Virus record (IMG/VR): IMGVR_UViG_3300031952_000114
Coordinates: 1 to 26,816 of that record
Reading direction: 5' to 3' (one strand)
Length of the DNA: 26,816 bases
DNA from: a virus
Shown: positions 3,638-26,793 of the stretch, in pieces
Layout: each line of letters starts with the position of its first letter
Position numbering within the stretch: the stretch's first letter is position 1
The notes under the pieces: generated by a model
What the model was told of the DNA's origin: nothing
Database searches by the model: none
What the model saw: the letters and a program-made list of their open reading frames with translations, nothing else
Made by a program: the position numbers and the translations under genes

Positions 3638-4009
3638 TCATTGTGAGCTGGTATCTATCTTTTTCTTGTTCGCCTGACGGTAGGCTTTCTGGTAGGCAAC
3701 CATTTTCTCTCGGTTCGCCTGACGGTAGGCTTTCTTTTCGGCAGCTATCTTTTCCTTGTTCGCCTCGTTGTAGGCTTTCTTTTCGGCAGCTATCCTCTCC
3801 TTGTTCGCCTCGTTGTAGGCTCTGTTCGCAGCGGCTATCTTTTCCTTGTTCGTTTCACGGTAGGCTTTACGCTGGGTAGCTCTCTTTTCCTTGTTCGCCT
3901 CGCCCCAGGCTTTCATGTAGGCTGCTATCTCTACCTTGTCCGCCTCGCTGTAGGTTCTACGCTGGGCAGGTCTCTTCCTCTTAACTGCGCTCTCTTTTTC
4001 TGCATTCAC
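3638..4009 (-). CDS. Lys/Ala-rich protein of seven 15-residue repeats
   Basis: I place the start at the GTG of VNAEKESAVKRK, because GGAGG lies 7 nt upstream and a promoter-like element lies further up. An ATG 66 nt upstream would pass through that element. After a basic leader, the protein consists of about seven tandem 15-residue units of the type AYNEANKEKIAAEKK, predicted to form one long charged helix. The same repeats appear in the DNA as 45-bp units. Similar repeats occur in phage proteins next to HNH endonuclease domains. No HNH motif follows here, so the nuclease part is absent or was never present. Function unknown; nucleic-acid binding is plausible. Confidence 0.6.
   Translation of the reverse strand: MNAEKESAVKRKRPAQRRTYSEADKVEIAAYMKAWGEANKEKRATQRKAYRETNKEKIAAANRAYNEANKERIAAEKKAYNEANKEKIAAEKKAYRQANREKMVAYQKAYRQANKKKIDTSSQ
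3650..3960. repeat. Tandem 45-bp repeats within the Lys/Ala-rich gene
   Basis: About seven imperfect 45-bp units encode the 15-residue helix repeats. On the + strand they show as recurring GTAGGCTTTCTTTTCGGCAG-type blocks. The two central units are nearly identical, which suggests recent duplication. Confidence 0.8.
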
Positions 4010-4030
4010 GTAAATTCCTCCATCTAGTAG

Positions 4031-4039
4031 CCTTATACC
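4031..4039 (-). promoter_or_regulatory. Candidate promoter element GGTATAAGG (site B)
   Basis: GGTATAAGG on the - strand lies in the gap between the 130-aa gene and the repeat-protein gene. It is 21 nt upstream of the chosen GTG start, leaving room for a transcription start just before the GGAGG site. Confidence 0.4.
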
Positions 4040-4087
4040 TAAAAGCGAGTGGACCTTGCAGGCCGGCCCGAGCACAAACCTTCTCCG

Positions 4088-6469: not shown

Positions 6470-6763
6470 ATGAGCTTTCGCATCTTGGGTAAAACAGCAA
6501 CTCTAGCACTTCTTCTGCCCTACCCCCCTTTGCTGGCCGGATACATATGGACCTGTGAAGCTGGCGGCTTTACGCGGAAGATCGTTGTGGAGTCATCATA
6601 TGCCGCAAGGCTGCCATGTAAGATCGTGTATAAGAAGCCGACGGAAAAAGAGCCTGACGTAGTTCTCAGCGACGCAACCCGTGACCCTGAACTATGCGCG
6701 GATAAAGCAGAGGCGATTGCTTTAGAACTGCGGAGGAAACACTGGTCTTGCCGCCTCGATTGA
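6470..6763 (+). CDS. Small exported protein with four cysteines, 97 aa
   Basis: The ATG follows an AGAGGAA site. Residues 1-24 look like a Sec signal peptide: a basic start (MSFRILGK), a hydrophobic core (TLALLLPYPPLLA), then small residues. The mature part has cysteines at about 29, 50, 76 and 94, enough for two disulphides, which fits the periplasm or envelope. It is an isolated + strand gene between two - strand blocks, a typical position for an accessory gene that alters the host envelope or excludes other phages. The family is not recognised, and the function is inferred only from export. Confidence 0.6.
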   Translation: MSFRILGKTATLALLLPYPPLLAGYIWTCEAGGFTRKIVVESSYAARLPCKIVYKKPTEKEPDVVLSDATRDPELCADKAEAIALELRRKHWSCRLD

Positions 6764-6784
6764 TAAAAATTGGTTATGGTTAGT

Positions 6785-6945
6785 CCGTAGCTAAAATTAC
6801 GATCGGGGAAACCCCGATTGGCAATGCTGTTCGTGCGGGTTGCTCAACGAGATCTAGTCTCAAGCATCCTGCCGGTTCAGACTTTTCACCTAAGCGCATG
6901 CGCCTCACGTGGAAAGTCTGATTGATCTGAAGCTACATCATGTCT
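6785..6945 (-). ncRNA. Candidate structured small RNA
   Basis: This stretch has no convincing gene but carries three hairpins. The first pairs 6878-6889 with 6909-6920 (12 bp with one G-T wobble) around an inner palindrome GCGCATGCGC. The second spans 6841-6866. The third pairs 6802-6808 with 6812-6818 around a three-base loop and on the - strand is followed by TAATTTTAG. A GGTATAAGT element (site D) lies just upstream on the - strand. Together they look like promoter, structured body and weak terminator. The alternative is a set of terminators or cruciforms between convergent genes. Confidence 0.35.
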
Positions 6946-6954
6946 CTTCAAATA

Positions 6955-6963
6955 ACTTATACC
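6955..6963 (-). promoter_or_regulatory. Candidate promoter element GGTATAAGT (site D)
   Basis: It reads GGTATAAGT on the - strand and shares its core with sites A-C. No protein gene starts downstream of it. The structured noncoding stretch 6785-6945 does, so it may drive a small RNA. Confidence 0.35.
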
Positions 6964-6965
6964 AG

Positions 6966-7067
6966 CTAATTGGCTACTTTTCTAAATGGGCATCTCGCAG
7001 TGCCCTGGCCGCTGCGAGCTCCTCTTGTAGGAGCGTAGCGTCTTCCTTGTAAAGCCACGAAGTCCAT
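6966..7067 (-). CDS. Doubtful 33-aa reading frame
   Basis: An ATG (complement of 7065-7067) follows a perfect AAGGAGG site 6 nt away, and the frame runs 33 codons to a TAG. The product (MDFVALQGRRYAPTRG...) is basic and not protein-like in pattern. A different frame across the same bases reads as a plausible helix (LYKEDATLLQEELAAARAL) but has no start there. Either a tiny gene is present or a frameshift separates start and body. It follows the glycosyltransferase gene by 13 nt. Confidence 0.25.
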   Translation of the reverse strand: MDFVALQGRRYAPTRGARSGQGTARCPFRKVAN

Positions 7068-7080
7068 GGGTGCCTCCTTC

Positions 7081-8025
7081 TTAAAGGCTGCGATACATTT
7101 CGAGGTAGTGGTTGACTAGGGTTTCGGGTTTCCAGTAGGTCTCCATCCATAGGCGGGAGCGTTCCCCGTATACCTGCCACATCTTTGCGCGAACCAAATC
7201 GCCGACGTTTCTTTTAAGGCTGCCTGCGCTGCCGTCAAGCCACGGAAGATCCGTAGCCCCCGTCAGCTCTTTGATTCCAGCGCGGACCCTCTCACTGATG
7301 TCAGCAAAGCAAGGGACACCGAGAGCCAGATACTCAAGGGAGCTAAGGCCGCAGCTGCCGTCAAAGATTTCATCAACACCGATATCAGAGTGCCGTTTGA
7401 GGGCCAAGACCTCCTTGTGGGGGCGTTTGACTATGAGCTGGTAGTTGATCTCCCCTGCATCCCGCAGTGCGGTCAGCATAGGGTTTACGACCGTGAAGCT
7501 CTCCCCTTCCCACCCCCTTGCGGCCCAGTTGCTCGGCGCATGGGAGATGGTCGGCTGGGACCTTAGGCATTGCCGCAGAGGGAGGTAGGCCGCATCTGTG
7601 ATATCAAGCACTCCCGGCACGACGAAGTCAGCCTCCGGCCAGCCCTCTATATTGAGGTGCGCAGTCATAGCGACAGGTACTTTAGTAGCGAAGGCCGAGG
7701 TGAGGTCATCGATCCACGAACGGGGGCTGTGGACCTGGATAACAGAGACCTTTTTGGGCGGCGCTATTCCCAGGTGCCGCAGCACCTTCAGCTTCTTCCA
7801 GCCATCATGGTAGTGAATTACGTCGGCCCACTCGTGCAGCCAGTAGGCCAGCTCATCTTCGGGCATGGTTTCGGCCACGAGGTCCGTATCGAAAGTACGG
7901 AATCCCGATGTGGGTGCCCAGACGAGGTGGCGCGAGCCCACATCCCCTCCGAACTTCTGGAGGAGCCTGGAGATCTGAAGGGGGTTGCCCGATAGGGTTG
8001 TGTCACTTAGATGAAGTATCCTCAC
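7081..8025 (-). CDS. GT-B fold glycosyltransferase (GT4-like)
   Basis: It probably transfers a sugar from a nucleotide-sugar donor to DNA, a phage protein or the host surface. The N-terminal Rossmann half begins MRILHLSDTTLSGNPLQISR, with the Gly-containing loop usual for these enzymes, and continues with ADVIHYHDGW. The C-terminal half has the donor-binding pattern DEIFDGSCGLSSLEYLALGV, equivalent to the E-x7-E region of GT4 enzymes, and ends in a helix that crosses back (KPETLVNHYLEMY). At 314 aa it is somewhat short for the family. Its ATG overlaps the previous stop by 4 nt, so translation is coupled to the zinc-ribbon gene. Acceptor unknown. Confidence 0.8.
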   Translation of the reverse strand: MRILHLSDTTLSGNPLQISRLLQKFGGDVGSRHLVWAPTSGFRTFDTDLVAETMPEDELAYWLHEWADVIHYHDGWKKLKVLRHLGIAPPKKVSVIQVHSPRSWIDDLTSAFATKVPVAMTAHLNIEGWPEADFVVPGVLDITDAAYLPLRQCLRSQPTISHAPSNWAARGWEGESFTVVNPMLTALRDAGEINYQLIVKRPHKEVLALKRHSDIGVDEIFDGSCGLSSLEYLALGVPCFADISERVRAGIKELTGATDLPWLDGSAGSLKRNVGDLVRAKMWQVYGERSRLWMETYWKPETLVNHYLEMYRSL

Positions 8026-9450: not shown

Positions 9451-10371
9451 ATGAGTTTTGACCTTGGCTCGTTCAACGAACGCCAGCTCTCAATGTCGCA
9501 CTTCCGCGAGTGGGCTTCGGAAATCGCGGAAGGCTACCTGGGTCAGGGGGCACTGCCGACAACCACGCTCACCAAGATCGCTCAGCAAGAGGACCTAACG
9601 CCGCCCAATATAAAGACCCTCGCTGCTGAAGCTAATAAGGAAATCCACCGGCTGAAGTTCGCTGCTGCCAGCTCTGGCGGCAAGTACTTCGCTGCTGACT
9701 TCCCCTTGGCCGATGCCCTGCATGCGATCGCGTCTGTGCAGGTAGATGGCGGTAAGGAAAAAGTTGCTCGTGAGATGCCCCTTCCCGTAATGGCCTATTC
9801 GGGTCCCGACGCTTACGCCCTCTTTGGCGTCAAGGAGGAGCCGCTCGATAAGACCGCCTCTGTCCGCGGTGAAATGCGGGTTGCTTCAGGCCGAATGGAG
9901 CTGCTCGAGCAAAAGCTCGGCGACGAGGTGATTCGCCGCGAGTTTCAAAAGGATGCTGCTGAGAAGCGATTCATCAAGCAGGCGCGGGAGCTGATCCTGC
10001 AGAACACCAGCAACGGCACAGAGCGCATGGACCAGATAAAGGTCCTTGATCAATTTGTTAAAAGCGCAGGGCTAGAGATTGGCCGCAAGCCGCTCGCTAA
10101 GCTAGCCTACGTCTTGGGCAAGGAAGGCCTGCTTACGCCTCTGCTAATGAAAGCAGCGTGCGCCAGACTCCTTAAGGTAGCCGACATGAAAGCCCCAGAG
10201 AACCTCATCTCCCAGACCCTTCAGGCGCAGGTAGTCAACGGCAACCACCCGCTCTATATAACGCTAAAAACTTTCCACGATCACAGCGAAGCTCTGGACC
10301 TTAGTCGGAACAGGCATAAGCTCGTCCAGGACGAGCTAAGGATTTTCAAGCAAAAAGCGAGGGCTTTGTGA
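9451..10371 (+). CDS. Unknown, probably virion-associated helical protein, 306 aa
   Basis: The ATG follows TGAGGAAG. The protein is mostly helical and charged. The first 60 residues contain a helix-turn-like segment (TTTLTKIAQQEDLTPPNIKTLA). The middle carries LDKTASVRGE and FVKSAGLE, which match the K-x-A pattern that recurs through the head-region proteins. The C-terminal third is a bundle of helices. It leads the structural operon, upstream of the protease-like gene, and the next gene starts inside its stop codon. I do not recognise the family. Candidate roles are core protein or internal head protein. Confidence 0.65.
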   Translation: MSFDLGSFNERQLSMSHFREWASEIAEGYLGQGALPTTTLTKIAQQEDLTPPNIKTLAAEANKEIHRLKFAAASSGGKYFAADFPLADALHAIASVQVDGGKEKVAREMPLPVMAYSGPDAYALFGVKEEPLDKTASVRGEMRVASGRMELLEQKLGDEVIRREFQKDAAEKRFIKQARELILQNTSNGTERMDQIKVLDQFVKSAGLEIGRKPLAKLAYVLGKEGLLTPLLMKAACARLLKVADMKAPENLISQTLQAQVVNGNHPLYITLKTFHDHSEALDLSRNRHKLVQDELRIFKQKARAL

Positions 10372-10625
10372 AGAGAAGTCTGCTCGCAGAGCTTCTGCCC
10401 GATGGCCGGGATATGGTGAAGGAGGCCTTCATCGCAGCGGCCGCAAGACTAGGGCTAGGAGCCATCACCCGAGTCGGTAAGGTCCTCGTTAAGAATCCCA
10501 TGAAGTCCGCCACTGCAGCTTTCGCGGCCAACGATGTGGCCAGCTCAGCATCCCGAATGGGTGATGTGGGAGCAGGCTCACGAAACCTAATGCGCAGCGT
10601 TGCGACACCCCCAGCCAATATGTGA
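10368..10625 (+). CDS. Unknown small protein, 85 aa
   Basis: It starts with GTG overlapping the previous stop (GTGA), with GAGGG a few nt upstream, so translation is coupled. The product is basic and Ala/Gly-rich, with an amphipathic N-terminal helix (MKRSLLAELLPDGRDMVKEA) and a low-complexity Ala/Ser/Gly C-terminus. It ends 7 nt before the next ATG. Its place in the operon suggests a minor head component. No family recognised. Confidence 0.55.
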   Translation: MKRSLLAELLPDGRDMVKEAFIAAAARLGLGAITRVGKVLVKNPMKSATAAFAANDVASSASRMGDVGAGSRNLMRSVATPPANM

Positions 10626-10632
10626 GGCCCCT

Positions 10633-11790
10633 ATGCAATACGCCTGGCTCGAAAAGCTATCATCTGAGGGTTATGTTCGGCCAGAGGCCAGGGAACAGAT
10701 CTATCGAGACTGCAGCAATCTGCTCAAGCACGCGAGCGCGCCCGCTTCAGGTGGGGGAGAAACCCTGCTTCAGGCAGTTGGTTCCGCACTTGGGAACTGG
10801 GCATCGAATATGGCGGGCAACGCAATAGAGAGCAAGATCCTCGGCTCGTTTCAGATGTCTGGCACCGTTAAAAAAATAAATAAGAACAAAGCCGCGATTC
10901 TAAGCCACCCCGACTTCTCGCAGTACCCTGAAAAAGCTGAGGCTAGATTTATGGATCTGGCAAAGATAGCGCCGACCATAGCGGCGCAAGAAGGTCGGGC
11001 AATAGATTTGGTGAAGGAAAAGCTGCACACTGGGTTTTCCTCCCAGGACATAGGCAACCTGGCTATTCTTCAGGCGATCTATACTTCCCAAGACCCTGCA
11101 TTCACATCTAAGGCAAATAAAGCCATGGAAAAAAAAGCGGGCGAGTCCCTTGGCGCAATGTATGCGGATGTGCTCTACATAGTTAAAGAGGCCGGCATAG
11201 CCGGAAGTCCCAGGCTAGGCGGAAGGTATCTAGCACCAGGAACCATGCTGAACGCCTTGAGAAACATGGCGATCGTAAGCTCCATCCCACTGCTTGCAGG
11301 GGTTGGGGCGGGAGCTGTTAAATCTTATGTCGCATCACGAGACAGTAAGGCGCTTGCTGGAAAGCTTCGAGACTCGTACGAACGTGCGCTACGAGATAGT
11401 GATTCTGAAACAAGCGACGACAAGAAGCTGCGGGAAGACCCCGCACGAGCTTACCAGGCGTTTCAGACCCTGGCTCATTTTGCCCCGCACGTTGCGATGC
11501 AGCCTACTGCGGCCCGATCTTTCATGAAGAGAATGGTTGGGTACAGTGAAGCAGGAGTTGGCATTGATGTCGACGGCCTGAAAGGGCTGAGCGAGATCGA
11601 GCGCAACATGTCGCAAACCAATCGAGGAGAGAGCCCCTTCTTCTCTGGATTTGAAACCGGTGCCGGTCTCTTTGGGCTGTCTAATACTTTGAGTGGGACG
11701 CTGAGCGATACCCTGTCCCCACTCCGGCAGCAGAGCAGGGAGATGGTTGCAAAGGACCTAGGGATATCTTTAGACAAGCATAAGAAGTGA
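10633..11790 (+). CDS. Unknown, probably virion protein with one hydrophobic segment, 385 aa
   Basis: I choose the ATG at 10633 (GAGG about 6 nt upstream) over an in-frame TTG 33 nt earlier that overlaps the previous gene. The N-terminus carries LLKHASAPASGGG, a K-x-A match followed by a flexible linker, so the first 35 residues or so may be removed. A helical middle follows. A hydrophobic stretch around residue 220 (MAIVSSIPLLAGVGAGAV) could span a membrane. The C-terminus is polar with repeated LSNTLSGTLSDTLS. Hydrophobic helices inside head proteins can mean DNA-ejection proteins, which is speculative here. It is not a recognisable portal. Confidence 0.6.
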   Translation: MQYAWLEKLSSEGYVRPEAREQIYRDCSNLLKHASAPASGGGETLLQAVGSALGNWASNMAGNAIESKILGSFQMSGTVKKINKNKAAILSHPDFSQYPEKAEARFMDLAKIAPTIAAQEGRAIDLVKEKLHTGFSSQDIGNLAILQAIYTSQDPAFTSKANKAMEKKAGESLGAMYADVLYIVKEAGIAGSPRLGGRYLAPGTMLNALRNMAIVSSIPLLAGVGAGAVKSYVASRDSKALAGKLRDSYERALRDSDSETSDDKKLREDPARAYQAFQTLAHFAPHVAMQPTAARSFMKRMVGYSEAGVGIDVDGLKGLSEIERNMSQTNRGESPFFSGFETGAGLFGLSNTLSGTLSDTLSPLRQQSREMVAKDLGISLDKHKK

Positions 11791-11799
11791 GGCCAAGTC

Positions 11800-13800
11800 T
11801 TGGATAAGCGACTCTTATACGCAGGCAAATCAGAAAAAGGGGTGTTCACGCATCTGATAGATGCGGAGCGTTCGTATCTTGAAAAGACTGCAGCACAATA
11901 CCATCCGACGATCGCCTCCTATATCAATTCAGCGAAACCGATCAAGGGTAAGACCCAAATCCTGCTCACGGCGCTCGGCGCTGGCGAGTGGTGGGGCGAT
12001 AATGCCAACGCGGATTACTTTGCCGAATCTGAACTGGCTCATGCCGGTCCCGACTATGGCTACCAGACATTCGAGCAGTGGGCCAGAGTCTATAAGCACC
12101 ATATAAACAAAGATCCGAACAATTCATACGGCACTGTGCCGCTCTCGATTTATAATCCGGAGTTCCATCGCTGCGAGCTGATCATCCATCTCGACAACCA
12201 CAAGGCCCCGGACATCCAGGCGCGTATCGAGAACGGCGACTACCCAGACTGGTCGATGGGCACCAAAATCCCCTACGATATCTGCAACATATGCGGAAAC
12301 AAGGCCCCCTCCAGGAAACAATACTGCGAGCACGCAAAGTACTATCTCGGACAAATCCACCCTGCGACGCAGAAGAAGGTTTTCCTCTACAACATCAAGC
12401 CACGCTTCTTCGATATCTCCTACGTGCTCCTCGGCGCGGACAGGATAGCAAAGACACTGCTAAAGGTAGCCCACGCCCGGCCGTCATACTACGGCATGAG
12501 TTCTGCGGCCTTGGCCGAGAAGCTCGCTGAGCGTGCGAAACAAGCAACTATCGAGAAACAGATTCCGGCCAATGACGCTGCGCCGCCAGGAAGCCAGGAG
12601 ATGCTTCACAATGCCAGAGCACTTCTCGAGGCTATTCCAGAGGTTAAGGCCAGAGAAAAGGTGCTGCCAAGAGAGACTCTCGACGAGCTCGCCGAGATGC
12701 CCCTACACAGTTCACTCTCCACAATGGCTATGCTGGGTATCGCTCCAAAGCCGCAGGAATTTCAAAGACTGTTCCTGATCTCCAAGGGCCTTCGTCAACT
12801 CGCCGATGCCTTGGACGCCAGGAACGCCTGCTTTGACCCGATGATGGCCGGAGATAGTCCGGATATGGGTGCGGTCGATATTGACGGAAAGCACGTGAAC
12901 GAGAGAGCGGTATCGCTCTTAAGCCCGCATATGGAAGGCAGGAGCTACGCGGCTCCTTTCCTTGGTCGACGCATTCTTCTGATGATCAAAAGCGGGGCAC
13001 AGGAGCAGCCTTTGCCAGTCTTCATCAAGGGCGCGGAAGATACTGGTGACAGAAAACCCATAGGGATTTTACCTGTGATGATTGCTGCTGCCGGCGCTTA
13101 TGCTGCCTTCTCTAGAAAAGCCCCCGCGGGAAGTCTTCAGGGCATAGATAAGCTGCTACAATCAAATGCGGGGCTTGGTCTTGCGACTGCACTCGGCATT
13201 GGACTTTTGAGTGTGTTTCATCATACCTTTGGACCTAAGATCAAAGGCCAGCTACACATGAACGCGCAGGAGAATCCTGACGCCAACGATATCTTTGCTC
13301 GTATCGAAGAGAGAAAGCAAAAGCCGTATCTTAAGCTCGGAGGGTCTTCCAACCTCGGGGCCGCTGCGAAACGGCTTTTCTTAGGTATTCCTGTAGCTTA
13401 TATGGCTTCAGGTGTTTTGCAAAAGCATAGAGACATAAACCCCTCCGAGCAGGAAGGCCAGGCGAAAAGTTTTCTCCGGCAAAACCCTGATCTTGTGAGC
13501 GGTGGTCTCATCGCGGATGCAATGCTGTCTGCCCGTGGAGGCGGCACGCACAAGATGCTGAAGAACCTCGGAAGGCAGTTCGCAAAAGCTGCCGAGGCTG
13601 CCGACGAGATCTTGAGCACCGACTTTTCGAAGACAGCGGACGCCCAGGATTTTCTTGCATCAGCCGTGACGTGGCCTTTGGCCATAGGCAATGCAAATCT
13701 TCCGGGGAGAATCGCAGGGGGGCTTTTTGATCAAGCGATGATTGAAGCTACGCATAAGTTCATGAAGTCGCGGCAGAAGAAGTCCCAGAGTCCCACTTGA
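11800..13800 (+). CDS. Putative head maturation protease with long C-terminal extension, 666 aa
   Basis: It would cleave scaffold and capsid proteins during head maturation. The TTG start has GAGG about 8 nt upstream, and no other start exists before residue 150. Residues 50-215 resemble phage prohead proteases of the herpesvirus-protease fold: LLTALGAGEWWGDNANAD, a YKHHINKD segment (H100/H101 as candidate catalytic His), HRCELIIHLD, and DYPDWSMGTKIPYD with S152 as candidate nucleophile. A CxxC...CxH cluster follows at once (C162, C165, C176, H178). K-x-A matches occur at LEKTA (27-31), LLKVA and FSKTA near the C-terminus. The last 400 residues include two hydrophobic stretches (near 430 and 465) and are of unknown role. 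It lies directly upstream of scaffold-like genes, as expected for a protease. Confidence 0.65.
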   Translation: MDKRLLYAGKSEKGVFTHLIDAERSYLEKTAAQYHPTIASYINSAKPIKGKTQILLTALGAGEWWGDNANADYFAESELAHAGPDYGYQTFEQWARVYKHHINKDPNNSYGTVPLSIYNPEFHRCELIIHLDNHKAPDIQARIENGDYPDWSMGTKIPYDICNICGNKAPSRKQYCEHAKYYLGQIHPATQKKVFLYNIKPRFFDISYVLLGADRIAKTLLKVAHARPSYYGMSSAALAEKLAERAKQATIEKQIPANDAAPPGSQEMLHNARALLEAIPEVKAREKVLPRETLDELAEMPLHSSLSTMAMLGIAPKPQEFQRLFLISKGLRQLADALDARNACFDPMMAGDSPDMGAVDIDGKHVNERAVSLLSPHMEGRSYAAPFLGRRILLMIKSGAQEQPLPVFIKGAEDTGDRKPIGILPVMIAAAGAYAAFSRKAPAGSLQGIDKLLQSNAGLGLATALGIGLLSVFHHTFGPKIKGQLHMNAQENPDANDIFARIEERKQKPYLKLGGSSNLGAAAKRLFLGIPVAYMASGVLQKHRDINPSEQEGQAKSFLRQNPDLVSGGLIADAMLSARGGGTHKMLKNLGRQFAKAAEAADEILSTDFSKTADAQDFLASAVTWPLAIGNANLPGRIAGGLFDQAMIEATHKFMKSRQKKSQSPT

Positions 13801-13834
13801 GTCATTGTTTCTAGAATAAACACCGGAGGATTGT

Positions 13835-14467
13835 ATGGCTACGTTACAAGAATTGCTCGAATCAGATTTCGGCGCATCCCAGACAAAAACCGCATCTGCT
13901 GGCAGAAGGCAGAACGATGACGAGATCGAAAAGCTCGCTGCAGAGCTGAATCTCGGGGACCTCTTCGGCAAGTCCGCCATGGACAAAGAAGAGGAAGAGG
14001 AAGAGGAAGAAAAAGAAGAGAAGAAGGCCGGCTTCCACGGGGGTCTGCCAGATCTCTACAACACTCTTTTCCCTTCGGATGGGGATTTGACCATCAAGAC
14101 TGCAGAGCAGGAAAAAAATGCCGCTGAGGAAAACCTCGGCTCTCGTGCATATGACTATTTCGGCGCCCAGTGGGACCGTCGTATCGAGAAGCTGGCTTCC
14201 GACGTCTTGACAGGCGGGGCCACCATCTCCTCTTCGACAGCTGCTGGCCATGACGGTGCGGTTCAGGAAGATTCCACCCCTCCACAGACTCAGGCCGACA
14301 ATAAGCCTGCAGGTGCCGGTTCTGGAATCAACACCAAAAGCACTGTGGTGACTAACAATGTCAAAGCGGAAAATGACGACGAGAGCGTCGGGCATTACGA
14401 GCAAAAGTCGGCAGCTATGAATCTTGCTATGCGCAAAGCATTCTTGATCTCGCAGCTCGAAGGCTGA
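13835..14467 (+). CDS. Acidic scaffold/core-like protein, 210 aa
   Basis: The ATG has GGAGG 6-7 nt upstream. The protein has a very acidic run near residues 50-65 (an almost pure Glu stretch) and low-complexity Ser/Thr/Asn in the C-terminal half. It holds at least six K-x-A sites: QTKTASAG, EIEKLAAEL, FGKSAMD, TIKTAEQ, RIEKLASDV and EQKSAAMN. Composition, position between protease and capsid genes, and density of possible cleavage sites fit a prohead core or scaffolding protein that is chopped up during maturation. The segment DDEIEKLAAEL is closely matched in the 137-aa protein two genes downstream, so they may share ancestry. Confidence 0.55.
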   Translation: MATLQELLESDFGASQTKTASAGRRQNDDEIEKLAAELNLGDLFGKSAMDKEEEEEEEEKEEKKAGFHGGLPDLYNTLFPSDGDLTIKTAEQEKNAAEENLGSRAYDYFGAQWDRRIEKLASDVLTGGATISSSTAAGHDGAVQEDSTPPQTQADNKPAGAGSGINTKSTVVTNNVKAENDDESVGHYEQKSAAMNLAMRKAFLISQLEG

Positions 14468-14516
14468 GTCTTTGAACGGGCAGTAGTCTAATTACAAATC
14501 AACAGGAGTAAATGAT

Positions 14517-15236
14517 ATGCGTTTTGAAGATTTAAGCGCCGCGGACCAAAAGCTCTTAAACACGGATTTTGGCGGCCTTGAGAAGGTAGCTGCGGATCAA
14601 GTTGCGCAGGCTCAGGAAATGTACGAGATCGGCTTTTCCAAGCTCGCGTCTCAAATTGCCGATCAGCTCGACGCTGAGGCAGCCGCTGAGAAGGTGGCAG
14701 AGGACAACACTCTGGATCCAGAGTCTGAGAAACTTGCCGCATCACTCGGCGCCTTTATCGAGCGCGGACAGTTCGATGGCCTCCGCAAGCTCGGCAGCGA
14801 TCGGCATGGCAATGAGTGGCACTATCTTCTTCCCTTCGTAGAAGAAAAAGTGGCTGCAGCAGGCGGGATGGCTGCCGTCACAAACTTCGGCAAAAAGCTC
14901 AAAGGCTACGCTGGGGCAGCTGGTAGTAAGACTAAAGAGTGGGCTGGGGCAGCTGGTAGTAAGACTAAAGAGTACGCTGGGAAAGCTGGTGATAAGGCGA
15001 AGGAAGTGGGCGGCAAGGTCAAAGACTACCACAAAAGTATGGCCGACGATGCACGCGGGGCGGCTACTGGCCGTAATGCGTTCATGGACCACACGGGCGT
15101 AAAGGGCAATCTGAACGCAGGGCAACGCGCCGGTGCTGGTGGCCGGGCTGCATTGAAGGCATCGCCATACCTCGCAGCTGGAGCTGGAGCCGGTTTGGCA
15201 GCAGCTATGCGCAAAAAAGAAGAACCAGCAAGTTGA
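14517..15236 (+). CDS. Scaffold/core-like protein with LEA-like repeats, 239 aa
   Basis: The ATG at 14517 has AGGAG about 10 nt upstream. An ATG 5 nt earlier is in a frame that closes quickly. Residues 1-115 are acidic and helical with K-x-A sites (GLEKVAADQ, GFSKLASQI, SEKLAASL, EEKVAAAG). Residues 131-174 hold four 11-residue repeats of the type YAGAAGSKTKE, which resemble LEA-type amphipathic helices. The C-terminus is Gly/Ala-rich with a weakly hydrophobic stretch (YLAAGAGAGLAAAM) and a charged end. It is probably an internal head or core protein. No firm family match. Confidence 0.55.
   Translation: MRFEDLSAADQKLLNTDFGGLEKVAADQVAQAQEMYEIGFSKLASQIADQLDAEAAAEKVAEDNTLDPESEKLAASLGAFIERGQFDGLRKLGSDRHGNEWHYLLPFVEEKVAAAGGMAAVTNFGKKLKGYAGAAGSKTKEWAGAAGSKTKEYAGKAGDKAKEVGGKVKDYHKSMADDARGAATGRNAFMDHTGVKGNLNAGQRAGAGGRAALKASPYLAAGAGAGLAAAMRKKEEPAS
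14907..15005. repeat. Three 33-bp tandem repeats in the LEA-like gene
   Basis: Units at 14907-14939, 14940-14972 and 14973-15005 encode 11 residues each. The first two are almost identical in DNA, and the third has drifted. A fourth, much weaker unit may follow. Confidence 0.85.
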
Positions 15237-15249
15237 GTTTGTAATGCTT

Positions 15250-15276
15250 CCGGGGGCATGTGCCCCCGGCTTTCTT
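15250..15276 (+). terminator. GC-rich hairpin, weak terminator candidate
   Basis: CCGGGGGC (15250-15257) pairs with GCCCCCGG (15262-15269) around ATGT, followed by CTTTCTT. It lies between two scaffold-like genes. The T tract is interrupted, so partial termination or mRNA protection is likely. Confidence 0.5.
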
Positions 15277-15292
15277 CAAGGAGCAGGGGCGT

Positions 15293-15706
15293 ATGCGGTC
15301 GATAAACGATATGATTCGTGATGCCGATGAGATCTTCGAGAAGAGGGCCTCAAAGCAGGAAAACACCAAGAGCACTAAATCTAGTGGCTATTCGGACGAT
15401 GAGATCTTCAAGCTCGCCGAGGAGCTAAAGAGCCCGTCCAGGACCAGCGCAGCTCGTGAGAAACTTGCCGAGCATGATGGGGAGACCAAGATTGCGTTTA
15501 CCCTGCGAGAGCAGATAGCGCACTCTGCGGCAATCATTGACACGCTTTTGAACCTGGAGCAGCTGGAAAAGTTTGCTGCGCTTGAGAGTGCAGCCAAAGA
15601 AAAAGGCTTCAGCGACGCGCAGATCCAGAGCTTTTTCGAGAAGAATGCTTCGACTGCTGGGTTTCGCTCAATCCTTTCGGAAATACCAGCTCTATTCGGA
15701 AAGTGA
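15293..15706 (+). CDS. Scaffold/core-like protein, 137 aa
   Basis: I choose the ATG at 15293 because AAGGAG lies 9 nt upstream. An upstream in-frame start would fall inside the GC-rich hairpin. The protein is charged and helical. It contains five K-x-A matches: IFEKRASKQ, EIFKLAEEL, REKLAEHD, QLEKFAALE and FFEKNASTA. The block SDDEIFKLAEEL parallels DDEIEKLAAEL in the 210-aa protein upstream. The last 25 bases and those after the stop form the left copy of a 37-bp direct repeat. A head-core role is inferred from composition and position. Confidence 0.55.
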   Translation: MRSINDMIRDADEIFEKRASKQENTKSTKSSGYSDDEIFKLAEELKSPSRTSAAREKLAEHDGETKIAFTLREQIAHSAAIIDTLLNLEQLEKFAALESAAKEKGFSDAQIQSFFEKNASTAGFRSILSEIPALFGK

Positions 15707-15726
15707 GTGAATGATCGTGCAAAACC
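15690..15726 (+). repeat. Left copy of a 37-bp direct repeat flanking the kinase-like gene
   Basis: It matches 16549-16585 at 34 of 37 positions in the same orientation. It covers the end of the 137-aa gene and the start region that belongs, in the right copy, to the 303-aa gene. This is the pattern left by insertion or unequal recombination. Confidence 0.85.
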
Positions 15727-15793
15727 ACCCAGTCCCCACCTTGATGCGCTGTGCGCCATTCGGGGTAGGTACCAGAGAGAGGGGGAAGTGATG

Positions 15794-16573
15794 ATGAACG
15801 ACTCATTCTGGGTTGGGTTTTTTAAGCACGCTTCGCCCAGGTGGATTAAAGAAATCCGAAAACTTAAACAAGTCCCTGAGGCTATGTCCGATAAGCTCAA
15901 AAGTTTGGGCCTTCCCCTGCGCGAAACTCGCCATATCGGCAGAGGGGGGAGTCAACTAGCAGATGAGGTGTTCCATCCAGTTCACGGGGTCTCTATTCGC
16001 AAAATACCTGTTGGGCACAACGCTGCAGACCGCGAAATACTAAAGGCAAGCGCGCGTGACAATATTGCTATGTGGGAGCATGCGCGTCACGCTACGGGGG
16101 GCAAGGGCCCGTTTGCTCACATTAAAGGCCATGAAGGACATGTGGCTTTTTATGAAAAGGCCATGCCATCTGCGAAAGACCGCGGTCCGCGGTTACGCCG
16201 TCTTATCCCCAAGGCTCTCGCTCTTGCGGAAACGCACAGCGCCATCCCAGGGCACAGTCGTCAAGAATGGCGCGCTTTGGATCTGTCTGTAAAACTGAAA
16301 AAAAAGAGCCGGGAAGAGGTTTCATTTAGCGGCAGAGACCAGGAGTACATAGATAAAATCAAAGAGAAGTATCCAGAGCTCCACGATTTGCGACACGGTA
16401 ATATCGTTGGTGGTAAAATAGTTGACATGGAGCCGGGTGGTAATCTTCGTATCCGACTCCACAGGCCTGATAATTATAAAAATCCTGTCAGCGAAGCTAA
16501 AAAGTACTTCGCTGCGGAGACGAGAGCAGCCCAAAAACAAAGGTCCGACTCTATTCGGAAAGTGAGCGAATGA
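15794..16573 (+). CDS. Kinase-like protein with FWVGF N-terminal tag, 259 aa
   Basis: I place the start at the second of two adjacent ATGs (GGGGGAAG about 6 nt upstream). The longer frame from 15707 begins in the repeat and has no ribosome-binding site. Residues 1-13 are the tag MNDSFWVGFFKHA. The rest resembles a small protein-kinase or aminoglycoside-kinase fold: a Gly-rich loop GRGGSQLADEVF (49-60), a candidate ATP lysine K70 in VSIRKIP, a hinge-like VAFYEKAM, and a catalytic-loop-like HDLRHGNIV with D198 and N203 at the usual five-residue spacing, then D211 in KIVDMEP. The C-lobe ends about 48 residues later, which is short. It lies between 37-bp direct repeats. Kinase activity is an inference. 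Confidence 0.5.
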   Translation: MNDSFWVGFFKHASPRWIKEIRKLKQVPEAMSDKLKSLGLPLRETRHIGRGGSQLADEVFHPVHGVSIRKIPVGHNAADREILKASARDNIAMWEHARHATGGKGPFAHIKGHEGHVAFYEKAMPSAKDRGPRLRRLIPKALALAETHSAIPGHSRQEWRALDLSVKLKKKSREEVSFSGRDQEYIDKIKEKYPELHDLRHGNIVGGKIVDMEPGGNLRIRLHRPDNYKNPVSEAKKYFAAETRAAQKQRSDSIRKVSE

Positions 16574-16585
16574 CTGTGCAAAACC
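16549..16585 (+). repeat. Right copy of the 37-bp direct repeat
   Basis: It differs from 15690-15726 at three positions. It encodes the last residues of the kinase-like protein and the first codons of the 303-aa protein, whose ATG at 16570 lies within it. Confidence 0.85.
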
Positions 16586-17481
16586 TCCTGATAGGTGATC
16601 AGCAGAAGCTGGCGTTTCTTAGTGGCTTTATGAGAAAACTCGTAAGCAAGGGAAAGCCGCTTCAAAAAATCGTCAAGGGGTCAGGGAAAGTCAGGAAGAT
16701 GGCTCCTGCAAGAGGGGGCAAACGCGTTTCAAAAAGCAACGCTGTGCCTGCTGGCTTTGCCGAGGGCACTAAATCCCCCAATGCACAGCGAGCTTGGGAC
16801 GCCTATCGCGAAAAGGCTATGACCTCAGGTGGTGGGGCCGACTCACTGCTTCTTTACCCTGCGCAGTTTGCTGCCGAAAAAATGTTGGGTAAAGAGCGGG
16901 TACGTAATAGAATGTGGAAAGCTGTTGGGGCGCCAGCGCTAAGAGCCGACACTGCTGTCGGGAGAGTCCTGGAAAAGACGCCGCTCGTAGGGAAGAAACT
17001 TTTTCGCGTGAAAGAGATGGTTCCTTGGGGCAAAGGACTTCATCGTGAGGTAGAGCGCTCTTCGGCTTTGGGGCCTCTCACGAAGGCTAGAGATATTGCT
17101 GCGCCCATCATTGTCGGCGCAGGTTTAGAGAAAGGCGTCAGGGCAATGACCAAGAAAAAAGATTCCGAGGATGGCCAGCACATAAGAGAAAAAGCCGCTT
17201 CAGTAATGCTTCATCTCCATCAGGAGAACAGGGGGCATGAGAAGCGTGCAGATGCCCTACGCCTTCTCTACAAGCAAGTAGAGCTAGGATACGGACAGCT
17301 GCCGCAATCTTTCGGCGAGCTAAATGAGAAATTAGCTTCGCTAGTAAAAGAGGATTTAGGTGTGTTGGAGAAGGCATTGGAATTAGCTGGGGGCAACCTA
17401 AAGTTTGGCGAGTTGGGATCGAAAGATAACTCCATAGCCGGGACCCCTGCAGAAAAATTCCAAGCCGACCTCCTGGACTGA
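16570..17481 (+). CDS. Basic head/core-like protein, 303 aa
   Basis: The ATG overlaps the previous stop (ATGA). The protein is strongly basic in its first 60 residues. It begins with a degenerate version of the tag (KLAFLSGFMRKLV), and further K-x-A matches occur at IREKAASV, GHEKRADAL and NEKLASLV. A weak hydrophobic patch (DIAAPIIVGAGLEKGV) lies near residue 185. The C-terminus is acidic. The gene would directly follow the 137-aa gene if the kinase-like insert were removed. The basic N-terminus suggests DNA contact inside the head. No family recognised. Confidence 0.55.
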   Translation: MTVQNLLIGDQQKLAFLSGFMRKLVSKGKPLQKIVKGSGKVRKMAPARGGKRVSKSNAVPAGFAEGTKSPNAQRAWDAYREKAMTSGGGADSLLLYPAQFAAEKMLGKERVRNRMWKAVGAPALRADTAVGRVLEKTPLVGKKLFRVKEMVPWGKGLHREVERSSALGPLTKARDIAAPIIVGAGLEKGVRAMTKKKDSEDGQHIREKAASVMLHLHQENRGHEKRADALRLLYKQVELGYGQLPQSFGELNEKLASLVKEDLGVLEKALELAGGNLKFGELGSKDNSIAGTPAEKFQADLLD

Positions 17482-17511
17482 TCGAAAACAACTTTTTTTG
17501 GAGGGGCAGAG

Positions 17512-18003
17512 ATGGTCGTCGCTATCTCGGACAGCAGAATCGTTCCCATCACTGAGGACTTGACCACAGAAGTGTCAACCCTAGAAATCTTGCGTGGTCT
17601 TGAGACCATGTACCGCGTGGACAAGCCCTTGGCTGTCCCCGGAACCACCGCACTTCTTATGGGTGAGTTTGCGGTACTGAATTCGGCCGGTAAGGCGGAG
17701 CGCGCAGGCGCTACACCTGTGGGCCAGACCTACCTTGTCTTTGCAGGTACCGATCGCTTTGATGTCAAGGCAACCGGACAAGTGACCCTCGTTATGAGTT
17801 GGCCAATCCAGGCGAAGACCACACGCTACAACACCGGCGGATCTTACGCGGTTGGGGATCTCCTCACCGTTAAGAACCTTGGTGGTGGTCAATCGCAGCT
17901 TACACCAGCGGCAACAACCGAATTCGCGGTTGCACGCGTGCTGGAAGTTGGAACAGGTTATCTCGTGTACGAGACTCTAGGCGGCGGCTCTACAGAGCTA
18001 TAA
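17512..18003 (+). CDS. Putative capsid decoration/accessory protein, 163 aa
   Basis: The ATG follows TTGGAGGGGC. The product is almost all beta-type, Gly/Thr/Val-rich, without cysteines (for example TDRFDVKATGQVTLVMSW and GGSYAVGDLLTVKNLGGG). The second half looks like a small beta-barrel. A small beta-rich protein directly upstream of the major capsid gene, with 55 nt between them, is a common arrangement for head decoration or stabilisation proteins. The assignment rests on this context and composition. It lacks the K-x-A motif, which suits a protein added to the outside after maturation. Confidence 0.55.
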   Translation: MVVAISDSRIVPITEDLTTEVSTLEILRGLETMYRVDKPLAVPGTTALLMGEFAVLNSAGKAERAGATPVGQTYLVFAGTDRFDVKATGQVTLVMSWPIQAKTTRYNTGGSYAVGDLLTVKNLGGGQSQLTPAATTEFAVARVLEVGTGYLVYETLGGGSTEL

Positions 18004-18058
18004 CCCCTGACCGAAGTCGCACTTGTTTGAAACACTTTTGAACATCAAGGAGATTTAG

Positions 18059-18970
18059 ATGTACGAAGGATTGGATAGCCAGACGTTTAACAATCTCTTC
18101 ATTGAGAGATTGGACACCGTCGAAGGGCTACAAAAAACAGCCGCTGCCGGCGCAGCATTTGTTCGATCAAAGATTCGTGAGATCGGTTTCGGGCGTCGCA
18201 TTCTGCCGCCAGAATCCGTATCCCGCGCAGATCTAACTCGCTCGACCGATCATGACACTCTGATCAAGATCGTCGATATCGAGCATGAGTCCAAGGCTAT
18301 GGCGGTCAACTTCGCTTCAACAGCGAACGAGCGCTATATCCAAGGCAAGCGTTATGCGCTGCCGTTCTTCAAGATCGAGTCCGAGAAATTCGTCAAGTCT
18401 GAAGGCGAACTCTTGGCCTATGATTACCCAATCACGAAAGTGATTGAGGAGAACTCAGTCAAGGACATTCAAAAAGTCGAAGATATCAAGTTCATCGAAT
18501 ATGCAGAAGCTGCGATCACGATCACAGGCAAGCGTATTATCTCTGCATCTACTTCGGTAGACCGCAAAGAGATGAACAGTCTCTTCAAGATGATCGACTT
18601 CGATCAGCTGACTGTTGGTTGCACGCTCATGAACACCGTCGACTATGACGATTACATGATCCAGCCTGCAACTGAAATCGGCTCGCCCTTGGCGTCGGAA
18701 ATCACTGTTGATGGCTACAAGTATCAGACGATTCTGAATCGTCGCCTTGTTGTCACCAACAAGCACGATATCCTGCTCCCTGGCGAAATCTGGGCTTTCA
18801 CTGAGCCAGCCTATCTCGGTAACTTCTTTATCCTGAATGACGTCAAGTTCTGGATCAAGAAAGAAGCCGATTTGGTTGTTTGGAAGACCTGGGAATATAT
18901 TGCCGAAGGCTTCGGTAATATCAAGTCGATCGCTAAGATCGAACTCGATGTTCCAAACCCAATTCCGTAA
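18059..18970 (+). CDS. Major capsid protein (HK97 fold)
   Basis: It forms the shell of the head. A strong AAGGAG lies about 7 nt upstream of the ATG, the best ribosome-binding site in the window, as expected for the most abundant protein. At 303 aa, the layout fits phage major capsid proteins: a helical N-arm, a long-loop region rich in charged residues (AVNFASTANERYIQGKRYALP), a spine helix region (ITKVIEENSVKDIQKVEDIKF), and a C-terminal A-domain-like part ending in strands (KHDILLPGEIWAFTEP...NDVKFWIKKEADLVVWKTW). GLQKTAAAG at residues 23-31 is a likely processing site; cleavage after A28 would remove a short delta-like segment. A hairpin follows the gene. Confidence 0.85.
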   Translation: MYEGLDSQTFNNLFIERLDTVEGLQKTAAAGAAFVRSKIREIGFGRRILPPESVSRADLTRSTDHDTLIKIVDIEHESKAMAVNFASTANERYIQGKRYALPFFKIESEKFVKSEGELLAYDYPITKVIEENSVKDIQKVEDIKFIEYAEAAITITGKRIISASTSVDRKEMNSLFKMIDFDQLTVGCTLMNTVDYDDYMIQPATEIGSPLASEITVDGYKYQTILNRRLVVTNKHDILLPGEIWAFTEPAYLGNFFILNDVKFWIKKEADLVVWKTWEYIAEGFGNIKSIAKIELDVPNPIP

Positions 18971-20190: not shown

Positions 20191-20664
20191 ATGCCGACGT
20201 ACCAACAAGATTGGGTCACTGGGCGTCAAGAGAAGGCGAAGCGTTATCTTCGCCTTTTTTTGCGTGATACGCCGGAGCTTAACCGCTTGATCCGCAAAGA
20301 AGAGTCCGACGACGAGATGCTTCTCTTCTGCTTGGAGATGACGATCTCTGACTGGAACAGCACCACGCCCTTGATAAGGCAGGTGGATATCGGGAACTAT
20401 CCCAGTCTCTACCTGCTCATGCATGGCTCCGTGATCCAGGTAATGAAGTCCCAGGGGATATTTCAGTCGCGTAACGAGCTCAATTACTCGGCAGGCGGGT
20501 CGAGCTTTATCCGTGCGAATAAGACGAACTACTACATGGCCTGGATGACCAATTTCGTAAACGACTACGAAGTCAAGAAGCGAAACATGAAAATGCAACT
20601 CAATATCGCTGGTGGTTGGGGTGGGGTCAATTCTGAATACGATAGGATAGGCTATGCTTGGTAA
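20191..20664 (+). CDS. Putative neck/head-tail connector protein, 157 aa
   Basis: The ATG has AGAGG about 7 nt upstream. The protein is helical at the N-terminus (basic and Leu-rich, RYLRLFLRDTPELNRLIRKE) and mixed later (ISDWNSTTPLIRQVDIGNYP). It ends with an aromatic/Gly-rich tail. Its position after the capsid-associated genes, and a size usual for adaptor proteins, point to head completion or head-tail joining. An intrinsic-terminator structure lies inside the frame at codons 15-24. The next gene overlaps its end by 11 nt. No sequence family recognised. Confidence 0.5.
   Translation: MPTYQQDWVTGRQEKAKRYLRLFLRDTPELNRLIRKEESDDEMLLFCLEMTISDWNSTTPLIRQVDIGNYPSLYLLMHGSVIQVMKSQGIFQSRNELNYSAGGSSFIRANKTNYYMAWMTNFVNDYEVKKRNMKMQLNIAGGWGGVNSEYDRIGYAW
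20233..20261 (+). terminator. Intrinsic terminator structure inside a coding region
   Basis: AAGGCGAAG (20233-20241) pairs perfectly with CTTCGCCTT (20248-20256) around a six-base loop, and Ts run to 20261. It meets all standard criteria but lies 40 nt inside the 157-aa gene. Confidence 0.65.
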
Positions 20665-20830
20665 GTTCTGGGAGGGCTTCTTCAAAAAAGCAGAGGAAGC
20701 AGATATCAGAAAGCTAGAGGCTCAGGGCAATGCGCCGATGCTCGCCCGAACCATCAGCAAAGCCGGACCAAGAGCAGACGACCTTACCGCTGAGAGTGAC
20801 CGCGCTAAATTCGAGGTAGCCAGAGGGTAA
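20654..20830 (+). CDS. Short protein with FW-GF tag, 58 aa
   Basis: The ATG lies inside the end of the previous gene, overlapping by 11 nt, with AGGAT/AGG-rich sequence just upstream. It begins MLGKFWEGFFKKAEEAD, a version of the FWVGF tag with its K-x-A end. The remaining 40 residues are charged, without hydrophobic core or cysteines, and probably disordered (EAQGNAPMLARTISKAGPRA). It seems to be little more than a tag and a tail. A peptide incorporated into the virion or used as an assembly aid is possible. Confidence 0.6.
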   Translation: MLGKFWEGFFKKAEEADIRKLEAQGNAPMLARTISKAGPRADDLTAESDRAKFEVARG

Positions 20831-21243: not shown

Positions 21244-22110
21244 ATGGCCGGAGTGCTAAGAAGAATCCAGTTCGAGAGTATTGCTGTGACCATACTGTCG
21301 ACCGGGCAGATACCTCGCATTCTCATCAAATGGAAGCTGGAGCCAACCTCGCAAAAGCTATCCAACCTCAAATTCTTTGTGGATCGCGGGGAGAGCCCTA
21401 CGGAGATGCACCAGCTCAACGCGTCACCAATTGCTGCCAAAGGCCTGGATGAATACGTCGACCATACGGCAAACGTAACGGACCTCGATAAGATTTACTA
21501 CTTCCGTGTCCGTGCGGTGGAGTTCCAGGGCGCAACGCCGGTTCAGACATTTACCTCCCCAAGCACGACCTGGGATGGCGACCTGGATTTGGTGGGGCTC
21601 TACATCGTTGAGGAACACCTCTTTGCGCACCGCTGGGTCTACGGTGTGCCGGTCATGATTTACAAGAAGCGTCGCGATGGGGTCTATTGCCCAGAGTGCT
21701 GGGATGATGTTCTGCAGCGTGTGGCTAAAAGCAATTGCCGGACCTGTTACGGCACTGGGCGCCTTGATGGTTTCTACGCCCCAATCGAAGCGTGGATGAG
21801 CCTTGAACCCGATCCAAAGATGGAGCAGGTCGTCGACTGGGGAAAGCGGCAGCAGGGGCAGACGGACATCCAGTTCACCAACTACCCTTTGCTGTCGGTA
21901 GATGACCTCATTGTGGAGCTCAAACCGAATAAATTCTGGAAGGTCTCCATTGTGAGGGCTCCTGAGAAAAACAGGACTGTAATACTTCAGCTCTGTAGGC
22001 TCGATGCGGTAAACCCATCGGACGTCGAATACAAGATCCCTGTGCCTGATGACAGGCGCCGCATTTTGCTCGAAGAGTCAGATCAGCGAGAGAAGGAAAG
22101 GGAATTTTGA
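21244..22110 (+). CDS. Virion protein with fibronectin-III-like domain and zinc knuckle, 288 aa
   Basis: The ATG is 3 nt after the previous stop. Residues 10-100 look like a fibronectin type III fold (SIAVTILSTGQIPRILIKW, then DKIYYFRVRAVEFQGATPVQ). Residues 145-180 hold two CxxC pairs, YCPECWDD and NCRTCYGTG, typical of a zinc ribbon. The C-terminal part is beta-rich (SVDDLIVELKPNKFWKVSIV), followed by a charged helix. It precedes tagged and connector genes on the way to the tail sheath, so a neck or tail-completion role is likely. Domain calls are from pattern only; the precise family is unknown. Confidence 0.55.
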   Translation: MAGVLRRIQFESIAVTILSTGQIPRILIKWKLEPTSQKLSNLKFFVDRGESPTEMHQLNASPIAAKGLDEYVDHTANVTDLDKIYYFRVRAVEFQGATPVQTFTSPSTTWDGDLDLVGLYIVEEHLFAHRWVYGVPVMIYKKRRDGVYCPECWDDVLQRVAKSNCRTCYGTGRLDGFYAPIEAWMSLEPDPKMEQVVDWGKRQQGQTDIQFTNYPLLSVDDLIVELKPNKFWKVSIVRAPEKNRTVILQLCRLDAVNPSDVEYKIPVPDDRRRILLEESDQREKEREF

Positions 22111-22403
22111 TGCATGCATTTTGGGTTGGATTCGAAAAGCGTGCCGGAAGCCTGCTGGGGGCGATGCCTGGTATAACCTCAGGGCTTCGCACCACAAAGT
22201 CGTTTGGCAAGATCCGGTCTGCACAGCCTAAGTCGGGGATATCCATCGGCGCTCGGTCTTTGGCCAGCCCCATTCCGGGACCGCCCACAGCGAGTGCGGT
22301 AAAGGCCGGGATTCCTGGGGCAACCGCGTCCTCCGTAGGGCGTAATGGCATACCTAAGCCGCCTATGCAGTACGGGGCAGGCCTGCAAGGGAGCTACATA
22401 TGA
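22110..22403 (+). CDS. Short Gly/Pro-rich protein with FWVGF tag, 97 aa
   Basis: The ATG overlaps the previous stop by 1 nt (TGATG), with AAAGGGA upstream. It starts MHAFWVGFEKRAGSLLG, the clearest copy of the tag with a K-x-A end. The body is Gly/Pro/Ser/Ala-rich and probably disordered (SLASPIPGPPTASAVKAG), with no predicted domain. Its stop overlaps the next ATG. A cleavable targeting leader on a disordered cargo or spacer is the simplest reading, but the role is unknown. Confidence 0.6.
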   Translation: MHAFWVGFEKRAGSLLGAMPGITSGLRTTKSFGKIRSAQPKSGISIGARSLASPIPGPPTASAVKAGIPGATASSVGRNGIPKPPMQYGAGLQGSYI

Positions 22404-26592: not shown

Positions 26593-26793
26593 ATGGTTTC
26601 TGATTCGTTTTGGGTAGGATTTGAGAAAAGAGCTGTATGGGGGTCAAGTAAGGAGAAGATGGAGGGTGACAAGCCAAAAACATCCACCAAAGTCCCTTCG
26701 ATACTAGCTCCAGTTTACGCACTCCACGCCGCCCTAAAAAATATTTCGCTATTGGATCAACATGGCGAACACAGTAAACATAAAAAGGACTAG
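26593..26793 (+). CDS. Short protein with FWVGF tag, 66 aa
   Basis: The ATG has AGAGG about 7 nt upstream. It begins MVSDSFWVGFEKRAVWG, a full copy of the tag. After a charged linker (SKEKMEGDKPKTSTK), a hydrophobic helix follows (SILAPVYALHAALKNISLL), and a His/Lys-rich end completes it. It is not a typical tail assembly chaperone, which would be expected near this point. The gene lies after the terminator and is followed within 3 nt by another tagged frame, so the two may be a pair of cargo genes. Confidence 0.6.
   Translation: MVSDSFWVGFEKRAVWGSSKEKMEGDKPKTSTKVPSILAPVYALHAALKNISLLDQHGEHSKHKKD

Follow-up and report, generated by a model that had tools for sequence, protein, structure and literature searches.

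A Lys/Ala motif in the head proteins of uncultured phages is a candidate prohead-protease site and ends a putative head-targeting tag

A short motif centred on lysine and alanine, hydrophobic-x-Lys-x-Ala (hxKxA), is concentrated in the head proteins of a group of uncultured phages, brackets the catalytic domain of a protease with the fold of T4 gp21, and closes a peptide, F-x-x-G-F-x-K-x-A, found at the N-termini of many unrelated proteins. The enrichment, specificity and conservation of the motif, the protease fold and the distribution of the tag were established from sequences and structural models. Judging from these, the motif is likely to be the recognition and cleavage site of the prohead protease encoded at 11800, and its extended N-terminal form a capsid-targeting sequence. 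With somewhat less confidence, we lean towards a wider reading in which a single peptide code does double duty in the group: as a Lys/Ala prohead-protease site and as an N-terminal head-loading zip code carried by 6-21 unrelated proteins per genome, which would be delivered to the host.

To our knowledge, capsid proteolysis in large phages has been mapped for few isolates. The code would make mature capsid N-termini and the packed protein set predictable for phages that nobody has grown; if it is true, the injected proteome could be read off the sequence. In each genome the tag singles out as many as some twenty proteins, most of them unannotated, as candidates for early proteins that are injected, and engineered heads might be loaded with its help. 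The Lys/Ala code appears unreported in the open-access literature, where we found neither 'GFEKRA' together with phage nor a paper on Salmonella phage Arash, one of the annotated relatives described below.

The head module and its relatives

The window analysed here is the entire IMG/VR virus record IMGVR_UViG_3300031952_000114, a 26.8 kb fragment of an uncultured phage. A head and tail module of the contractile-tail type starts at 9451 on the + strand and runs, in order, through a core-like gene (9451), the protease (11800), three scaffold-like genes (13835, 14517, 15260), a decoration candidate (17512), the major capsid protein (MCP; 18059), the sheath (23287; phrog_279) and a tube candidate (25791). 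The - strand carries a DNA polymerase (4535-6397; phrog_17, 4e-94) and a 275-residue protein (1079-1906; phrog_19422, 1e-30) that resembles ribonuclease HII by eye.

Using the MCP as bait retrieved 43 loci in relatives that share it, the longest contig measuring 182 kb; the protease retrieved only 2 loci and was the poorer bait. Among annotated isolates, the MCP matched only Salmonella phage Arash (180.8 kb; about 34% identity) and three Vibrio phages, D69, D148 and D181, the matches spanning 32-34% identity. Motif densities and tag counts for D69 refer to a 40 kb stretch, and the structure predictions were run without Arash and D69 rows.

Enrichment and specificity of the motif

We counted hxKxA with h as Phe, Leu, Ile, Met, Val, Tyr or Trp and took expectations from 2,000 rounds of shuffling within each protein. 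The head genes of the window (9451-18970; 3,107 residues) hold 31 matches against 8.45 expected, the highest shuffled count being 19, whereas the other genes (5,125 residues) hold 7 against 7.73. This head-versus-non-head comparison bears out the head excess suspected in an earlier note on this DNA, and every site named there is present, including GLQKTA at residues 23-28 of the MCP. As that note also stated, the decoration candidate has no hxKxA. Two of its points are corrected here. The motif clusters in head-region proteins but also occurs in tagged proteins elsewhere (20654, 22107, 26593), reaching beyond the head because an N-terminal tag on other proteins ends in it. The highest densities, which it placed in two or three scaffold-like proteins, belong to the core/scaffold-like 9451 product (eight sites) and the 15260 product (four sites). 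Of the sheath and tube, in which it noticed no such clustering, the sheath has no match and the tube candidate one of the Y type.

Because the head proteins are rich in Lys, Ala and Glu, the motif could in principle be a by-product of Lys/Ala-rich helices, a possibility that the earlier note had itself raised. Within the head proteins of the window, the reversed pattern AxKxh occurs 7 times against 8.5 expected, hxRxA 2 against 5.8 and hxQxA 5 against 4.1; hxExA reaches 15 against 7.4 (z 2.9), which did not repeat in other genomes. A natural control is provided by a Lys/Ala-rich repeat protein on the - strand (3638-4075), which has no hxKxA against 0.90 expected, so that Lys/Ala-rich helices alone do not yield the motif. 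Its repeats are of the type AYNEANKEKIAAEKK. The composition-preserving shuffles, the reversed motif and this control protein are thus all at background and the K-x-A positions are conserved, as described below; we therefore reject the by-product explanation as extremely improbable.

The same specificity is seen across six genomes, in which the head enrichment of hxKxA has z 6.7-12.8, the reversed pattern z -0.5 to 2.4, and patterns with Arg or Gln in place of Lys little or no excess. Altered spacings gave z 5.3 and 4.2 in two genomes (hxKxxA) and z 4.1 in one (hxKA), always below hxKxA itself. Neither the T4-type pattern [LI]xE[AGS] (z -1.4 to 1.4) nor the phiKZ/SPN3US-type AxE (z -0.5 to 1.7) is enriched in the head proteins of these six genomes. 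Head densities are 9-14 per 1000 residues against 1.4-2.4 in the rest (records G001, G002 and G004, Arash and the 40 kb D69 stretch). Of all blocks as long as the head module, the module itself ranks first in motif density in each of four large related genomes (9-13 per 1000 residues); non-overlapping blocks reach 6.3 at most, with a median of 1-2. One-sided Fisher tests, treating residues as independent, gave p from 2e-11 to 4e-21 for these four; as the head limits were set by us and the genomes are related, these values are not independent tests. An exhaustive count of gapped triplets, made without a motif in mind, placed EK.A, L.K.A, F.K.A, M.K.A and K.AS among the leaders, and L.K.A, EK.A and K.AS are among the leading triplets in most of the six related genomes, Arash included; in one of them (G001) an unrelated S..S..S pattern ranks first.

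A gp21-fold protease bracketed by the motif

The protease-like gene that the earlier note had placed at 11800 does encode a protein with the gp21/herpesvirus protease fold. The gene and its flanking motif sites are:

11800..13800, + strand: gp21-fold prohead protease with a long C-terminal extension (phrog_18299 at 2e-9, fold, invariant residues)
11878..11892, + strand: protease site 1, LEKTA, residues 27-31, ahead of the catalytic core (conservation)
12457..12471, + strand: protease site 2, LLKVA, residues 220-224, just past the catalytic domain (conservation)

The product matches phrog_18299, a head maturation protease family. Its predicted protease domain (residues about 16-209; block pLDDT mostly 61-89) superimposes on T4 gp21 (5jbl) with Z 11.4 over 144 residues at 2.9 Å, the next structural matches being herpesvirus proteases at Z 4.5-5.8. 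His100, His101 and Ser152, the last within an SM[GA] motif, are invariant in 18 relatives and are presumably catalytic. The gene lies in the head module beside the scaffold and capsid genes. Fold, conserved residues and gene context together led us to class the protein as gp21-type, and it is predicted to cut the head proteins. Two relatives carry protease genes of about 1,030-1,070 codons (L027:3527-6601 and L030:3329-6532). In the first, the alignment shows an intein-like insertion of ~340 residues directly after the SMG of the catalytic serine, starting CLLSGSKIRLADG and ending VADGIVTHN|C.

At site 1, Leu27 and Lys29 are invariant and Ala31 nearly so among 18 proteases; at site 2, Lys222 and Ala224 are invariant, as are Lys247 and Ala249 of a third K-x-A. 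Outside the catalytic domain there are few invariant columns, and those nearest to it are mostly K-x-A positions; the others are Ser235, Ala239, Lys253 and three more residues. Residues 210-280, which include sites 2 and 3, are modelled with pLDDT under 50. Site 1 sits in a predicted helix, which counts against the cleavage reading. The homologous proteases of Arash and D69/D148/D181 (31-32% identity) carry the motif in homologous places, and the far more distant protease of phage G also has motif sites around its domain.

Predicted substrates in the head

The head proteins listed here carry the motif and are the predicted substrates of the protease:

9451..10371, + strand: core/scaffold-like protein with eight hxKxA sites (residues 40, 132, 165, 174, 202, 215, 232 and 240); 8 against 0.90 expected
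10600..11790, + strand: head-module protein with four sites (LLKHAS, LAKIAP, MEKKAG, IVKEAG); 4 against 0.99 expected
13835..14467, + strand: scaffold-like acidic protein with three sites (IEKLA, FGKSA, IEKLA); 3 against 0.36 expected
14517..15236, + strand: scaffold-like protein with two sites (LEKVA, FSKLA); 2 against 1.05 expected, alone not significant
15260..15706, + strand: scaffold-like protein with four sites (FEKRA, IFKLA, LEKFA, FEKNA); 4 against 0.43 expected
18059..18970, + strand: MCP (phrog_2522 at 5e-12; phage G gp27, 6wkk, at 1e-17)
18128..18142, + strand: predicted MCP maturation site LQKTA, residues 24-28 (conservation of Lys26 and Ala28)

In the family of the 9451 product, whose Arash and D69 members are 14-19% identical to that of the window, three K-x-A columns are present in 6 of 6 members; the aligner may favour K-x-A matches, so this conservation is supporting evidence only. 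The MCP has HK97-fold matches over residues 132-301 (Z up to 11), in a model whose overall confidence is low (mean pLDDT 49), a weak point of the case for cleavage. In its N-terminal arm, Lys26 and Ala28 are invariant and Gly23 nearly so among 20 MCPs, and both Lys26 and Ala28 also occur in Arash and D69. From this site we predict that the mature MCP begins at Ala29. The MCP of phage G, a remote relative, lacks the N-arm site, which counts against this reading.

Motif-rich proteins are also encoded outside the module: in Arash (174466-175335; 8 sites), where the protein is annotated as structural, in D69 (L003:27873-28724; 9 sites) and in two uncultured relatives (G001 6594-7721, 13 sites; G002 490-1590, 11 sites). 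Their site content suggests that they are further substrates. The RNA polymerase beta-type subunit of Arash (130093-134670) begins MPKSAS, an N-terminal K-x-A-S, and its D69 counterpart (L003:235-4872) has MPKKAS at the likely start.

Consensus and probable scissile bond

K-x-A sites pooled from the motif-rich proteins were compared by position, counting from the Lys. Position -2 is Leu, Phe, Met or Ile in 213 of 314 sites, Glu is favoured at -1 (88 against 25 expected) and Gly at -3 (43 against 21). Position +1 is commonly Val, Thr, Glu or Ile, with Gly and Asp depleted, and at +3 Ser (75 against 20) and Ala (63 against 37) are in excess with Leu, Ile and Val depleted. The preferences for Glu at -1 and Ser/Ala at +3 go beyond the motif of the earlier note. 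Information drops off past +4 and flank preferences weaken beyond about 7 residues. The consensus is roughly G-[LFMI]-E-K-x-A|[SA], or G-[LFMI]-E-K-[V/T/E]-A-[S/A] when written out more fully, and both the fading flanks and the Ser/Ala after the Ala are as expected for the subsite pattern of a protease. Small residues flank the Ala-(Ser/Ala) bond, which makes cleavage after the Ala our first choice and, on balance, a probable one; cleavage after the Lys, an arrangement that would resemble hydrophobic-x-Glu in T4, is a less probable second choice.

The motif might instead be an uncut docking or assembly peptide, acting between scaffold proteins, between scaffold and MCP or in protease recruitment, with the scissile bonds elsewhere. 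T4 targeting peptides do bind the core before being cut (PMC9026906), and many sites per scaffold would suit multivalent binding too. This explanation is nevertheless quite unlikely, given that sites on both sides of the protease domain and in the MCP N-arm are what cleavage predicts, and that a position-specific Ser/Ala after the Ala, with Leu, Ile and Val depleted, is a typical subsite pattern. The cleavage-site reading of the earlier note is thus supported by the gp21-fold protease, the motif bracketing its catalytic domain, the K26-x-A28 of the MCP N-arm and the high site density of the core/scaffold-like proteins.

An N-terminal tag that ends in the motif

The placement of the motif outside the head module revealed an N-terminal tag that does not appear in the earlier note. 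We defined it as F-x-x-G-[FILM]-x-K-x-A within 12 residues of the start codon. Ten genomes contain 100 N-terminal occurrences and 9 elsewhere; the reversed pattern has a single match, and replacing the Lys by each of seven other residues yields 31 in total. The pattern, like the head limits, was drawn from these same, mutually related genomes, so its count is descriptive; the weight lies on the N-terminal placement, the unrelated carriers and a collection-wide scan. That scan, of IMG/VR DNA for FWxGFEK[RS]A, found only 25 stretches, 17 of them on contigs from which this MCP was already known; of the 37 instances, 32 were N-terminal.

With the tag removed, the carriers fall into 74 families, and within each genome every tagged protein belongs to a different family (21 of 21 in G001). 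Large records hold 6-21 carriers, enzymes among them: an SNF2-type helicase (PF00176, 3e-17), NUDIX hydrolases (PF00293, 6e-18) and ligase-like proteins, which match PF14743 weakly and are remotely similar to annotated ATP-dependent DNA ligases. Four tagged proteins are encoded in the window:

15788..16573, + strand: tagged protein MMMNDSFWVGFFKHAS..., candidate capsid cargo (N-terminal F-x-x-G-F-x-K-x-A)
20654..20830, + strand: tagged 58-residue protein MLGKFWEGFFKKAEE... (tag pattern)
22107..22403, + strand: tagged 98-residue protein M-HAFWVGFEKRAGS..., ATG at 22110 (tag pattern)
26593..26793, + strand: tagged 66-residue protein MVSDSFWVGFEKRAV... (tag pattern)

The true start of the 15788 product lies downstream of the longest-ORF start at 15707. 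Kinase-like readings of this product and of a tagged G001 protein were guesses by eye and were dropped: the former has no Pfam or PHROG match, the latter no Pfam match.

Some tagged proteins, two NUDIX hydrolases included, carry a second, C-terminal tag-like sequence (FWRGFRKGAA, FWRGFGPVHG, FLAGFAGRAR; G004 83951-84487, G007 43377-43904, G004 149062-149814). At five loci (L131, L132, L144, L145, L146) a tandem K-x-A directly precedes the tag, as in EKSA-FWDGFEKRA and TKKA-FWQGFEKRA, and the 16570 product of the window has a degenerate tandem form, QKLA-FLSGFMRKL.

Even if the head motif is a cleavage site, the tag could do something else, for instance send proteins elsewhere in the infected cell. 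The tag is absent from Arash and from the 40 kb of D69 examined, both of which share the head motif, and the place of tagged proteins in virions is so far inferred. Set against this, the tag closes with the five-residue head motif and shows its Glu at -1 as well, and the Gly at -3 is common to the tag and the MCP site. The residues ahead of the Lys fit the head-motif logo, although ending in the protease motif is true by definition of the pattern. Moreover, the tag occurs mostly on contigs with this MCP, and the tandem arrangements of K-x-A followed by FWxGFxKxA exist. We consider a separate role unlikely and favour head targeting.

Proposed maturation pathway

In the pathway that we propose, the 11800 protease would be packed into the prohead and would free itself through cuts at the sites bracketing its domain. 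It would chop the core and scaffold proteins at their many motif sites and trim residues 1-28 off the MCP. N-termini of the form F-x-x-G-F-x-K-x-A would bring a large set of unrelated proteins into the prohead, there to lose the tag at its K-x-A end to the same protease, as T4 internal proteins lose their targeting peptides. The analogy to the T4 capsid-targeting sequence (CTS) would assign targeting to F-x-x-G-F and cleavage to F-x-K-x-A. Of this pathway, we infer the cleavage, the choice of bond, the packaging and the delivery to the host.

Comparison with known systems

The prohead protease gp21 of T4 recognizes L/I-X-E sites (PMC9026906), and those of phiKZ and SPN3US cut after the Glu of S/A-X-E and A-X-E sites (PMC5694885, PMC10052503). 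The distribution of the motif described here is that known from head proteolysis in all three. With T4 gp21 the present system shares the fold, the head-gene context, many sites in core proteins, a site in the capsid N-arm and possible self-processing at both ends, T4 gp21 being suspected of cuts at both of its own (PMC9026906); it differs in a long C-terminal extension and in a motif centred on Lys and Ala rather than Glu. With phiKZ and SPN3US, whose proteases process their C-termini themselves at the motif they recognize (PMC5694885), it would share head proteolysis in a large phage, several sites per propeptide and C-terminal self-cleavage; they cut after Glu, and AxE is not enriched here. 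A Lys/Ala code unlike these Glu sites, and recoverable from sequence, indicates that protease specificity has diverged.

The closest relatives with names, Arash and D69/D148/D181, have head modules with a homologous MCP (32-34%) and protease (31-32%) and the motif in homologous places. Among more distant protease relatives, phage G has an intermediate motif excess (z 3.5), mainly from its protease, and the Erwinia phages pEa_SNUABM_5 and Alexandra have none. In the actinobacteriophages Tonenili, Pupper, E3, Finch and Stormageddon any hxRxA excess is weak at best (z 1.9-3.8), and their MCPs start ..G[LF][GQ]R[FV][AS]K[AG]S; this is suggestive of a K-to-R variant, which is not established.

For the tag, the DarB protein of phage P1 likewise has an N-terminal capsid signal, but its authors found no consensus among the P1 Dar proteins (PMC9024508), in contrast to the shared sequence here. 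The closest model is the T4 CTS, for which the first ten residues are enough: positions 4 and 7 mainly serve targeting, and positions 8 and 10 processing (PMC9026906). Both are short N-terminal peptides on unrelated proteins that end in the protease's own motif (PMC9026906, PMC3012670); the tag described here differs in its sequence, F-x-x-G-F-x-K-x-A, in its 6-21 carriers per large record, enzymes included, and in that packaging is here a prediction from the analogy.
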